Shown piece by piece: positions 10,747 to 17,955 of a stretch of DNA of 64,000 nucleotides; position 1 is the first letter of the stretch, and each line of letters opens with the position of its first letter. A program made the position numbers and the translations under genes. A model generated the notes under the pieces. It ran no database searches. It saw only the letters and a list, made by a program, of their open reading frames with translations, and was not told the origin of the DNA. The stretch comes from Microbacterium sp. GTDB taxonomy: Bacteria; Actinomycetota; Actinomycetes; Actinomycetales; Microbacteriaceae. Where the stretch lies: NCBI RefSeq assembly GCF_017305435.1, contig NZ_JAFKIP010000007.1, positions 124,001 to 188,000 on the forward strand, given 5' to 3'.

Positions 10747-11440
10747 TGCCCCTCGCGTCCACGCCCCTCCCCCGCAACCTCCTGCGTGAGGACGTGCACG
10801 CACGGCTGAAGAACGCCATCGTGGACGGGACCCTCGCTCCCGGCGAGCAGCTGCGCGATGGCGAGCTCGCCGCACGCCTCGGCGTCAGCCGCACACCGGT
10901 GCGCGAGGCCCTCCTCGAACTCGCGCGCGCGGGTCTCGTCCGCGCGACCCCGGGGCGGTCCACCGTCGTCGCACCGATCGAACCCGCCGCCGTTCGCGAC
11001 GCGCAGGCAGTCGTGGCGGCGATGCACGCCCTGGCCGTCCGGGCGGCGGTGCCGCACCTCACGGCATCCGACCTCGACGAGATGCGCGCCGCGAACGCGG
11101 AGTTCGCCGCCGCGCAGACGCGCGGAGACCTCGACGCAGCGATGGATGCCGATGCCCGATTCCACGCCGTCCCGGTCGCCCGATCGGGCAACGGCGCGGC
11201 GGCGGCGGTCCTCGCCCAGTACGAGCCGGTCCTGCAGCGCGCCGAGCGCCTGCGCTTCGCCTCCCACGAAGGCGCCCTGTCCGCGGAGCGGCACGCGCGC
11301 CTGATCGAGCTGTGCACCGCCCGTGACATCGACGCCGCGGCGACACTCGCCGCAGAGATCTGGCAGACCCTCCCGGCGCCCGATCTCGCCTCGCCTCACC
11401 ATCCACACCCGCATCGCCCGCCGAACAGGACACCCCATGA
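10746..11440 (+). CDS. GntR family regulator (FCD type) with frame problem at its 3' end
   Basis: The N-terminal part is a winged helix typical of GntR proteins: [20 protein letters not shown], then [21 protein letters not shown] helical FCD-type effector domain follows to about residue 220 (EIWQTLPAP). In this frame there is no stop until 12510, so the frame runs through the whole acdS gene. A shift of -1 near 11390-11430 would instead give a short tail and a TGA at 11438-11440 overlapping the acdS ATG, the normal arrangement. Either the sequence lacks one base or the regulator really has an unusual end. The end coordinate given assumes the shift. The likely role is control of ACC deaminase. 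Confidence 0.75.
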
Positions 11441-12468
11441 AGCTGCACGAGTTCGCCCGCTACCCGCTGACGTTCGGCCCGAGCCCCCTCCAGCGGCTCG
11501 ACCGCCTCTCCGACCACCTGGGCGGAGCGCGCATCTGGGCCAAGCGCGAAGACGTCAACAGCGGCCTCGCCTTCGGCGGCAACAAGGTGCGCAAGCTCGA
11601 GTACATCGTCCCCGATGTGCTCGCGTCGGGGGCCGACACGATCGTCTCGATCGGCGGCTACCAGTCGAACCACACGCGTCAGGTCGCCGCCGTCGCGGCG
11701 CACCTCGGACTCAAAGCGCGCCTCGTGCAGGAGAAATGGGTGCCGTGGGACGACCCCACCAACGACCAGGTCGGCAACATCCTCCTCTCCCGCATGATGG
11801 GCGCCGACTCGCGCCTCGACGACGCCGGCTTCGACATCGGCATCCGCGATTCGTGGAAACAGGCGCTCGAGGAGGTCGAAGCGGGCGGCGGAACCCCCTA
11901 CCCGATCCCGGCCGGGGCGAGCGAACACCCCCTCGGCGGTCTGGGCTTCGCGAACTGGGCCTTCGAAGTGGCGGAGCAGGAGAAGCAGCACGGAGTCTTC
12001 TTCGACACGATCGTCGTCTGCACGGTGACCGGTTCGACGCACGCGGGCATGATCGCCGGCTTCGCGGCGCTGGAGGAGCTCACCGGGGTGAAGCGACGCG
12101 TCCTCGGCATCGACGCATCGGCGACGCTCGAGAAGACCCGCGACCAGGTCGCGCGCATCGCGCGGCACACGGCGGACCTGATCGAGCTCGGCCGGGAGCT
12201 CCGGGACGACGAGATCCAGGTGCTCGAGGGCTGGGCGGGCGACCTCTATGGCATCCCTGTGGACTCGACGATGGAGGCGATGGCACTCGGCGCGCAGCTG
12301 GAGGCGATGATCACCGACCCGGTCTACGAAGGCAAGTCTCTCGCGGGGCTCATCGACCTCGTCCGATCCGGGGACATCCCGAAGGACTCCACCGTCCTCT
12401 ACGCGCACCTGGGCGGGCAGCCGGCGATCAACGCCTACCACTCGCTGTGGGATCCGTCGGCCTCCTGA
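11437..12468 (+). CDS. acdS: 1-aminocyclopropane-1-carboxylate (ACC) deaminase
   Basis: This 343-residue fold-type II PLP enzyme converts ACC, the plant ethylene precursor, to 2-oxobutyrate and ammonia. The PLP lysine is in [11 protein letters not shown] (Lys50). [21 protein letters not shown] and [14 protein letters not shown] match AcdS, and both the Glu of PVYEGKS and the Leu of YAHLGG, reported as separating true AcdS from D-cysteine desulfhydrase, are present. The close relative D-cysteine desulfhydrase remains an alternative. It directly follows the GntR gene and is probably in one transcript with it. The gene is common in plant-associated bacteria. Confidence 0.9.
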
Positions 12469-13653: not shown

Positions 13654-13725
13654 GACATCAGCCTACGCCGCACGGCGGGGCGAAGGCTGAGGATGCCACG
13701 AGCCCGCCCTGCCCGCGACGTCTGC

Positions 13726-13773
13726 TAACGTGACCTCATGTTCGCGAGCACCTCCTGGTGGCCCACCCGCTGA
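13726..13773 (+). CDS. trpL: trp leader peptide (TrpL), 11 codons, leaderless
   Basis: A short frame from ATG 13738 encodes MFASTSWWPTR and then stops. Two adjacent Trp codons make it a sensor of charged tRNA-Trp. The -10-like TAACGT (13726-13731) lies 6 bases before the ATG, so translation would begin at the 5' end of the transcript. The feature span includes this -10; the coding part is 13738-13773. It is followed by mutually exclusive hairpins and the anthranilate synthase gene. Confidence 0.85.
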
Positions 13774-13838
13774 GGCGGTGTGCTCGCAACGCTTGACACA
13801 GACCGCCCCGCACTCCACCGGGCGGTCTTCTCGTTTTC
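13744..13838 (+). promoter_or_regulatory. Transcription attenuator of the anthranilate synthase gene
   Basis: Three pairings are visible. GCGAGCA (13744-13750) with TGCTCGC (13781-13787) forms the pause hairpin over the leader peptide. GGCGGT (13774-13779) with ACCGCC (13802-13807) forms an antiterminator. GACCGCCC (13801-13808) with GGGCGGTC (13820-13827), followed by TTCTCGTTTT, forms the terminator. Stalling at the Trp codons would free the antiterminator; rapid translation would favour termination. Confidence 0.85.
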
Positions 13839-13877
13839 GCGATGAGGCAGCCCGCCTGAACGACAGAAAGGCCCGGC

Positions 13878-15815
13878 ATGCCCGACGCCATCGCTGACGC
13901 GATCTCCTCCGGACGCCCCTTCGCCCTGCTCGCCCGCGACGGCGAGACCGTCGAGATCCTGACGGGAGACGTCGTCGATGTCGCCCTCCTCGCCGACATC
14001 CCGCTGCACGGCGTGGACGGTGCTCCGCGCGAAGTCCTCGCCCTCGTGCCGTACCGCCAGATCGTCGAGCGCGGCTTCGTCTGCCACGACGACGGCGCTC
14101 CGCTGCGCTGCCTCGTCGTCGACGAGCACACGGCGATCCCTGTCGCCGCCGCGCTGGCCGCCCTCCCGACCACGCCGATCCCGCTCACGGATGCCGGATT
14201 CGACATCTCCGACGCGGAATACGCCGACATCGTGCGCACCGTCATCACCGACGAGATCGGGCGCGGCGAAGGCGCGAACTTCGTGATCCGGCGCGACTAC
14301 ACGGCATCCGTCGACACGGATGCGCTGACGGCGGGGCTCACGTGGTTCCGTGCCCTGCTCGAGCACGAGCGCGGCGCCTACTGGACGTTCCTCGTCTCGA
14401 CGCCCGGTCACCTCGCCGTCGGTGCGAGCCCCGAGGCGCACGTCAGCGCCGTCCACTCCGACAGCGGAGCCGGGGTGGTCACGATGAACCCCATCTCGGG
14501 AACCTTCCGCCACCCCGCCGGCGGGGCGACGAGCGAGACGTTGACCGAGTTCCTCTCCTCGACGAAGGAGACCGAGGAACTCTTCATGGTCGTCGATGAG
14601 GAGCTCAAGATGATGAGCGCCGTCTGCAGCGACGGCGGCCGCATCACGGGGCCGCACCTCAAGGAGATGTCGCGCCTCACCCACACGGAGTACATGCTGC
14701 GCGGGCACAGCGCGATGGACCCCCGCGACATCCTGCGCGAGACGATGTTCGCGCCCACGGTCACCGGATCGCCGATGCAGAACGCCTGCACGGTCATCCA
14801 GCGCCACGAGAAGACGCCCCGCGGCTACTACTCGGGTGTGGCGGCGCTGTTCACCCCGTCGTCCGACCCGGCGCCCCGGAACGGCGCGGGCACGCACGAC
14901 CTCGATGCGCCGATCCTCATCCGGACGGCGTACCTCGTCGACGGTCGCCTGCGCGTTCCCGTCGGCGCGACGCTCGTGCGCCACTCCGACCCGGACGGCG
15001 AAGTGAGCGAGACCCACGGCAAAGCGGCCGGCGTGCTCGGCGCGATCGGCGCGATCCCGCGCGACGAGGCCGCCGAACGCGCGGTCCTCGACGAGGATGC
15101 GCCCACGGTTCCGAAGGCGTCCCTCGCCGACGATCCCGCGGTCGCGACGCTGCTCGCCGCGCGCAACGAGCGCCTCGCCTCGTTCTGGCTGAACCCGCAA
15201 GACGGTGCCGAGGCGCCGACGGGACCGGGCGCGGGACGCACTGCCCTCGTCGTGGATGCCGAGGACCGCTTCACGACGATGCTCGCCCACCAGCTGCGGC
15301 ACCTCGGCTTCGCCGTCGAGATCGCCCCGTGGAGCGAGGTGACGGATGCCGCCGTCGCTGCGGCCGACGTCGTCGTCGCCGGTCCCGGCCCCGGCGACCC
15401 GCGCGACGGCGCGAGCCCGCGCATCGCGCGCATGCGCGACGTGGTCGGCCGCCGACTGTCATCCGGCCGGCCGCTCCTCGCCGTGTGCCTCAGTCACCAG
15501 ATCCTCGCCGACGCCCTCGGCATCGAGCTCGCGCCTCTCGCGTCGCCGCACCAGGGGCTGCAGAAGAGCGTCGACGTGTTCGGGTCTCCCGCGTCGATAG
15601 GCTTCTACAACACGTTCACGGCACGCGTGACCCCGGGCACGACATGGCTCGGCGCGACCGAGATCGCCGCCGACGCGGCATCCGGCGACGTCTATGCGAT
15701 GCGCGGACCGGGCTACGCCTCCGTGCAGGGCCACCTCGAGTCGATCCTCTCCCGCGACGGCCTGGAGACGCTCGAGCGGCTCATCGTGCACGCGCTCACC
15801 CCGGTCGGAGCCTGA
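13878..15815 (+). CDS. Fused anthranilate synthase, component I plus glutamine amidotransferase (TrpE-TrpG)
   Basis: The 645-residue protein combines a chorismate-binding domain (residues about 100-430, with MNPISGTFRHPAGG, FSSTKETEELFMVVDEELKM and LRETMFAPTVTGSPMQNAC) and a C-terminal class I amidotransferase (about 455-640, nucleophile Cys in LLAVCLSHQILADALG and His in VQGHLESIL). It makes anthranilate from chorismate and glutamine. Such fusions occur both in tryptophan synthesis and in secondary pathways (PhzE-like). The upstream Trp attenuator argues for tryptophan synthesis. ATG 13878 follows AGAAAGG. No other trp genes are adjacent. Confidence 0.92.
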   Translation: MPDAIADAISSGRPFALLARDGETVEILTGDVVDVALLADIPLHGVDGAPREVLALVPYRQIVERGFVCHDDGAPLRCLVVDEHTAIPVAAALAALPTTPIPLTDAGFDISDAEYADIVRTVITDEIGRGEGANFVIRRDYTASVDTDALTAGLTWFRALLEHERGAYWTFLVSTPGHLAVGASPEAHVSAVHSDSGAGVVTMNPISGTFRHPAGGATSETLTEFLSSTKETEELFMVVDEELKMMSAVCSDGGRITGPHLKEMSRLTHTEYMLRGHSAMDPRDILRETMFAPTVTGSPMQNACTVIQRHEKTPRGYYSGVAALFTPSSDPAPRNGAGTHDLDAPILIRTAYLVDGRLRVPVGATLVRHSDPDGEVSETHGKAAGVLGAIGAIPRDEAAERAVLDEDAPTVPKASLADDPAVATLLAARNERLASFWLNPQDGAEAPTGPGAGRTALVVDAEDRFTTMLAHQLRHLGFAVEIAPWSEVTDAAVAAADVVVAGPGPGDPRDGASPRIARMRDVVGRRLSSGRPLLAVCLSHQILADALGIELAPLASPHQGLQKSVDVFGSPASIGFYNTFTARVTPGTTWLGATEIAADAASGDVYAMRGPGYASVQGHLESILSRDGLETLERLIVHALTPVGA

Positions 15816-17790: not shown

Positions 17791-17814
17791 CCGGGCTCTC
17801 CGGCGGCGGTGGCT

Positions 17815-17955
17815 TCATCGCGGCATCCCGCCGCCGCCGATCTTCGTCGCGGCATCCCGCCGCCATCGACCTTCGTCGCGGCATCCCGCCGTCATCGACC
17901 CTCGTCGCGGCATCCCGCCGTCATCGACCTTCGTCGCGGCGTCCCGCCGCTCCCT
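17815..17955 (+). repeat. Tandem 29-base repeat, nearly five copies
   Basis: A unit containing TCGTCGCGGCATCCCGCCG followed by a variable CATCGACCT is repeated with a 29-base period and a few substitutions. It lies in the gap between the membrane protein and ycnI. There are no unique spacers, so it is a minisatellite and not a CRISPR array. Confidence 0.85.

Follow-up and report, generated by a model that had tools for sequence, protein, structure and literature searches.

A conserved tryptophan attenuator with a predicted leaderless leader peptide precedes a PhzE-like fused synthase gene in Microbacterium

A fused gene for a chorismate-binding enzyme and its glutamine amidotransferase, here called trpEG, lies in the 64,000-nucleotide stretch of Microbacterium sp. 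DNA that we have analysed (the window), and it raises the question of how its expression is controlled and which pathway it serves. An earlier note, made from the letters of this DNA, had read a complete leaderless trp attenuator directly before the gene: an 11-codon frame with two adjacent Trp codons starting 6 bases past a -10 element, then a pause hairpin, an antiterminator pairing GGCGGT with ACCGCC, and a terminator sharing the ACCGCC arm. All of these parts were found in the sequence where they had been placed (Table 1). The attenuator is real and conserved, and its kind is already known. We conclude with high confidence that it is a ribosome-mediated transcription attenuator of the classical type, whose leader ORF is leaderless, and that it controls what would be, by elimination, the cell's anthranilate synthase.

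Table 1. Elements of the trpEG leader region and the gene that follows, in window coordinates
Feature	Position	Strand	Remarks
Extended -10, TGC-TAACGT	13723..13731	+	TAACGT 13726-13731, TG 13723-13724; no recognisable -35
Leader ORF, MFASTSWWPTR*, 11 codons	13738..13773	+	Predicted leaderless; putative transcription start A13738
Tandem Trp codons (codons 7 and 8), predicted stall site	13756..13761	+	Read in the sequence
1:2 pause / anti-antiterminator hairpin	13744..13787	+	Base: GCGAGCAC 13744-13751 complementary to GTGCTCGC 13780-13787
2:3 antiterminator	13774..13807	+	Strand 2 GGCGGT 13774-13779 with strand 3 ACCGCC 13802-13807
3:4 terminator	13800..13837	+	AGACCGCCC 13800-13808 / GGGCGGTCT 13820-13828, then TCTCGTTTT 13829-13837
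Shine-Dalgarno-like AGAAAGG of trpEG	13865..13871	+	Read in the sequence
trpEG, fused chorismate-binding and class I glutamine amidotransferase, PhzE-like, 645 aa	13878..15815	+	PF00425, PF00117

The arrangement of these parts in the window is compact. The six bases between the -10 and the leader ATG read GACCTC, strand 2 begins at the very next base after the leader stop, and the terminator consists of a stem of nine perfect pairs, an 11-base loop and the TCTCGTTTT tail, that is, an intrinsic terminator with its U-tract. Its score is equalled by 1 of 300 shuffles; a strict terminator scan called none at the window, the loop exceeding the limit of 8 and the T run being interrupted. TGGTGG occurs at 21 sites on both strands of the 64 kb, and a single one of them, the leader site, lies in a short ORF with TAnnnT 6 or 7 bases 5' of it. 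A search of the own genome with the bare pattern (WW with a TRG end) was given up as powerless, with 55 matches vs 105 for the reversed control.

A search of relatives for a WW leader at the same place, which the earlier note had called for, gave an answer that agrees with its reading: 95 of 99 related loci carry a tandem-Trp leader, or 96 of 100 loci with the window included. These 100 loci comprise 80 relatives fetched by protein and 20 fused-gene loci from 150 family genomes, the window's own included. TGGTGG was the motif by which the leaders were located; the invariance of the Trp pair therefore follows from selection, and the real test lies in the four misses. In two of these (L001 and L048) the stretch of upstream DNA is too short, and in the other two (L079 and L101) there is no leader. 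A short ORF with tandem Trp codons thus stands 5' of a gene which by elimination only is one of Trp biosynthesis. L101, from a genome of ~1.4 Mb (G027), has its fused trpEG beside ispG, with neither a tandem-Trp leader nor a match to the covariance model described below; this small genome appears to have lost the attenuation.

Conservation was also followed with a covariance model of the leader, which in the own genome scored 85.4 bits at the window site and 17.3 at the next best. Across the genus, 194 of 198 genomes have a match at E 1e-8 or better, one each, a count in which adjacency to the gene plays no part; the fused gene itself is present in 195 of the 198 (E 1e-100 or better). Three of the four genomes missed by the model also lack a match to the gene and lie in 480 to 650 contigs; the fourth (G300) has the gene. 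In the wider family the fused gene is found in 20 of 150 genomes, and in 19 of these 20 a model match lies 5' of it. The family search gave matches in 75 of the 150 genomes at E 0.01 or better, and interpretation was confined to the 21 that exceeded 30 bits.

Two family matches stand before other genes. In G089 a leaderless Trp leader, MHMTTAWWPTFSVG and its stop (41.5 bits), precedes a gene for a 249-aa methyltransferase-like protein (PF08241; L137:767-1516, minus strand, and upstream), an unexpected target for a Trp leader; at E 1e-20 or better, 249 family genomes hold this gene itself and one homologue only, the latter without such a leader. In G136 a similar leader, MSRNAMQSWWAA and its stop (38.8 bits), precedes a PALP-family gene (PF00291; L138:278-1465, minus strand, and upstream), which by reading of its sequence resembles TrpB. 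G136 lacks the fused gene and has no strong match to TrpE either, and a TrpB-like gene under a Trp leader could perhaps serve indole salvage.

The folding of the leader was examined next to its conservation, and it is conservation, not folding energy, that carries the case for the attenuator. Folding of the whole 103-nt leader gives -44.4 kcal/mol (z -2.8), with 1 of 200 shuffles equally stable. In 46 of 96 rows no more than 5 of 100 shuffles reach the stability of the antiterminator, and the window lies outside those 46, with an ordinary energy equalled by 24 of 100 shuffles. This last figure would suit a tandem-Trp frame and GC-rich hairpins that came together by chance in GC-rich intergenic DNA. 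We give such an origin practically no credit; it is contradicted by the 95 relatives and the 194 of 198 genus genomes in which the leader is conserved, by a fixed spacing to the -10 and by compensated pairs.

The compensated pairs come from a structure alignment of the window with 56 of 71 distinct relatives. The 15 omitted were near duplicates and the distant L071, L076, L077 and L080, and their omission may flatter the structure; L043, L053, L058 and L078 had been dropped earlier, because the hairpin caller picked another hairpin in them, and loci after L080 were unused. TGGTGG is invariant in the 57 rows, which were chosen by that motif. In the 3:4 terminator 97.2% of cells are paired in these 57 sequences, and 28 cells are changed on both sides vs a shuffled mean of 9.6, a value reached by 0 of 500 shuffles; the number of pairs changed on both sides (3) says less, being reached in 113 of 500. 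The 2:3 antiterminator is paired in 95.0% of cells and varies little: just 5 cells are compensated, which 0 of 500 shuffles reach, its pair types are not above control (495 of 500 shuffles reach them), and its covariation score is below those of versions slid by +1, +2 and +3 columns 3'-ward. Selection thus appears to keep the 2:3 and 3:4 stems, which have strand 3 in common and exclude each other, with the smaller support on the side of 2:3. Moreover, four distant rows show a concerted change at one position in strands 2, 3 and 4, resembling the complementary triples of Seliverstov et al. (PMC1262725, as far as its available part goes).

The geometry of the leader is likewise kept. In 87 of 96 leaders three codons lie between the Trp pair and the stop, and the GCGG of strand 2 lies at most one base from the stop in 83 of 96: directly after it in 73, one base on in 10, while it is three bases on in 4 and was not found in 9. 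The window is counted among the 10, its extra G being part of the stem. The rows are partly non-independent, with 88 distinct leader strings among the 96.

If the leader is leaderless, its promoter should lie at a fixed short distance. In 96 of 96 leaders, the window included, TAnnnT stands 6 or 7 bases 5' of the start codon, and it is preceded by TGn in 64 of the 96. Where a leader had several possible starts, the -10 had been used in choosing among them; spacing is therefore tested cleanly by the 73 relatives with a single start, in which TAnnnT lies at 6 in 45 and at 7 in 28, with no other spacing between 0 and 34, against a background of 13 in 14,359 positions. A leader with an ordinary ribosome-binding site was rejected, a Shine-Dalgarno-like site being present 5' of the leader in 0 of 96. 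Thus all 96 fall within the range of 4-9 bases from -10 to start codon known from S. lividans data (PMC8079986, here as elsewhere as represented by the parts of the cited papers that were available), and none has a Shine-Dalgarno site. By its promoter position the leader would be leaderless, with A13738 as the putative transcription start. Alternatively, the attenuator could be real but its leader lie within a longer transcript and be translated by ordinary initiation or after a start further 5'. The 5' end of the transcript being placed by sequence, and a strict sigma-70 two-hexamer scan calling no promoter at the leader (there is no -35), some room is left for this, yet the spacing in all 96 leaders and all 73 single-start relatives, the missing Shine-Dalgarno site and the S. 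lividans trpL1 leader, leaderless by RNA-seq start sites (PMC8079986), make it very improbable in our judgement.

From the parts, their conservation and the compensatory changes seen in some of them, we infer the start, the stalling, the termination and the response to tryptophan as follows. RNA polymerase would start at A13738, so that the message would open with the leader AUG and a 70S ribosome would load at the 5' end. When Trp-tRNA is scarce, the ribosome would stall at codons 7-8 and cover strand 1, leaving GGCGGT free to pair with ACCGCC, and transcription would proceed into trpEG. With Trp-tRNA in good supply, the ribosome would reach the stop, which touches strand 2, and with strand 2 covered the 3:4 terminator would form. 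In the absence of translation 1:2 would form, and 3:4 would terminate.

These states were modelled in 82 of the 96 rows, 14 being dropped because the fixed strand 2 or strand 3 motif was not found. In transcripts that ended before strand 4 and carried a ribosome at the Trp codons, the antiterminator had a probability above 0.5 in 82 of 82 rows. With the ribosome at the stop it did so in 0 of 82, which is partly by construction because strand 2 was masked, and without a ribosome it was still favoured in 19 of 82. Once the RNA of the window is finished, the terminator has the greater stability, also when a stalled ribosome is modelled. Since the terminator wins once strand 4 is present, the switch would need kinetic trapping. 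Classical attenuators do switch kinetically.

The earlier note went further and proposed that 70S initiation itself would couple tryptophan supply to transcription. We take this up as a hypothesis; the sensing of tryptophan is expected to occur by elongation at codons 7 and 8. Perhaps leaderless initiation acts as a second input, reporting 70S availability or initiation stress beside Trp-tRNA, which would be why the distance from -10 to AUG is fixed, and the terminated RNA of ~100 nt and its peptide may also act in trans, a set of ideas that we regard as doubtful. As the 1:2 hairpin begins ~7 bases from the 5' end, 70S would have to load before it closes if such a second input exists. In the window, the mean unpaired probability of the first 18 bases is 0.67 with 30 bases made and 0.35 after strand 2; the early start of 1:2 and the rising pairing of the 5' end thus make it plausible here that loading of the ribosome races against closure of the hairpin. 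Across the leaders, the 5' unpaired probability falls below 0.5 once strand 2 is made in only 49 of 96, so that 5' shielding is not a family constant. A participation of leaderless initiation in attenuation has already been discussed for C. glutamicum ilvBNC, where the first hairpin is proposed to pause polymerase for ribosome loading and then to shield the start site (PMC11857589, available part). That system shares the leaderless leader, but it responds to branched-chain amino acids, and the function of its terminator is supported by mutations (PMC11857589).

Which enzyme would be placed under this control? The earlier note had named the gene a fused TrpE-TrpG. The fusion of synthase and amidotransferase holds, with the chorismate-binding domain PF00425 first and the class I amidotransferase domain PF00117 after it, yet the sequence is PhzE-like. 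Among solved structures it is closest to the fused enzyme 3r74 (521 bits, residues 22-640), which we take to be Burkholderia PhzE although it is listed under another molecule name; provided that 3r74 is PhzE, the domain order and near full-length similarity are those of a PhzE-like fused anthranilate/ADIC synthase. Scores on the NCBIfam models TrpE-clade3 and PRK13566, fused TrpE(G), are far under the cut-offs (127.9 vs 739.15 and 141.3 vs 645), and trpEG is therefore not filed in that clade; among the best 25 of 40 families, it is under the cut-off of every NCBIfam TrpE model.

The assignment to tryptophan synthesis comes by elimination. The own genome (3.5 Mb, completeness 100) encodes three chorismate-binding enzymes. 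The other two have PabB and isochorismate synthase as their best matches, neither reaching the curated cut-off, and NF010086, the TrpE model for actinobacteria, finds no strong match in the genome (best 2.9e-69); therefore trpEG is most likely the cell's anthranilate synthase, short of proof. The elimination is imperfect, as the PabB-like protein scores 261.3 on TIGR00564 trpE_most (cut-off 517.7), not far under its PabB score of 311.9. Together with the nearly full-length match to 3r74 and the low TrpE-clade3 score, this speaks for a phenazine-type ADIC synthase (PhzE) whose tryptophan control would serve another pathway. To that reading we allow only a slim chance. Of the other two enzymes one fits PabB best and the other isochorismate synthase, and the genome lacks a strong match to canonical TrpE. 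Moreover, the fused gene occurs in 195 of the 198 genomes of the genus and lies as a single gene between ispG and rseP, and S. venezuelae TrpEG, another PhzE-like enzyme, acts as an anthranilate synthase (Ashenafi 2008, cited in the available part of PMC3111181). A function of the gene outside tryptophan synthesis was considered and rejected. The 20 fused-gene family genomes are divided with regard to canonical TrpE, to which 12 have a strong match (E 1e-199 or better) and 8 have none. The attenuator serves as a functional pointer: it marks an enzyme that is PhzE-like and under the cut-offs of the NCBIfam TrpE models among the best 25 of 40 families as the likely tryptophan-pathway anthranilate synthase of the whole genus.

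Looked at for a phenazine cluster context, the direct neighbours of trpEG are ispG and rseP. The segment 12502-17433 holds trpEG as a single gene between ispG (minus strand) and the M50 protease gene rseP (minus strand), an order kept in many Microbacterium relatives, not in all. In other genera neither ispG nor rseP was found within ~1.5 kb of the fused gene, except for ispG in L101.

Attenuators of this kind are not new. Lin reportedly described the one of S. venezuelae trpE(G) in 1998. Experimental work on its tryptophan-dependent attenuation is cited in PMC4833913 and PMC1262725, and it shares with the present locus both a trp attenuator and a fused PhzE-like enzyme, there an anthranilate synthase (PMC3111181), whereas organism and sequence differ. 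The earlier note had called such attenuators known in Streptomyces and corynebacteria, and for Streptomyces S. lividans trpL1, which precedes trpE (SLIV_27120), bears it out: as in the window, there is a leaderless peptide (MFAHSTRNWWWTAHPAAH there), two hairpins with a U-enriched stretch and a monocistronic anthranilate synthase gene, but its leader has three Trp codons and 18 aa (PMC8079986, available part). In Sinorhizobium meliloti, an Alphaproteobacterium, a leaderless leader also precedes a fused gene: the 5' end of the leader RNA is the trpL ATG, and trpE(G) is attenuated according to tryptophan (PMC7298713, available part). Leader RNA and peptide act there in trans as well (PMC7298713), a role that would be hypothetical in Microbacterium. 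Seliverstov et al. (2005) named trp attenuators for Corynebacterium and Streptomyces, with Microbacterium unnamed in the part covered (PMC1262725), and the features of their actinobacterial attenuators, namely 2-3 Trp codons, a GC-rich terminator with poly-U and triples common to terminator and antiterminator, recur here. Korolev 2015 treats Trp attenuators in Actinobacteria (as cited in the available part of PMC4833913). In the open-licence literature we found no report of such an attenuator in Microbacterium or Microbacteriaceae, and we do not claim that it is unpublished. No family of Rfam 15, Trp_leader (RF00513) included, matched the window or six relatives' loci at the gathering threshold, and Trp_leader gave no match on 13690-13900 at a permissive threshold of E up to 10. 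The 194 genomes form a large natural set in which a predicted leaderless start is joined to attenuation.

Two further observations concern the surroundings of the locus. Downstream, at 17813-17950, lies a tandem array of 4.8 copies of a 29-base unit (91% matches), shortly before a secreted-like ORF whose translation matches no NCBIfam model. On the other side, at 11437-12468, is a gene for 1-aminocyclopropane-1-carboxylate deaminase (TIGR01274, 509.5 bits vs a cut-off of 392), preceded by a GntR-like regulator that was named by reading its sequence.
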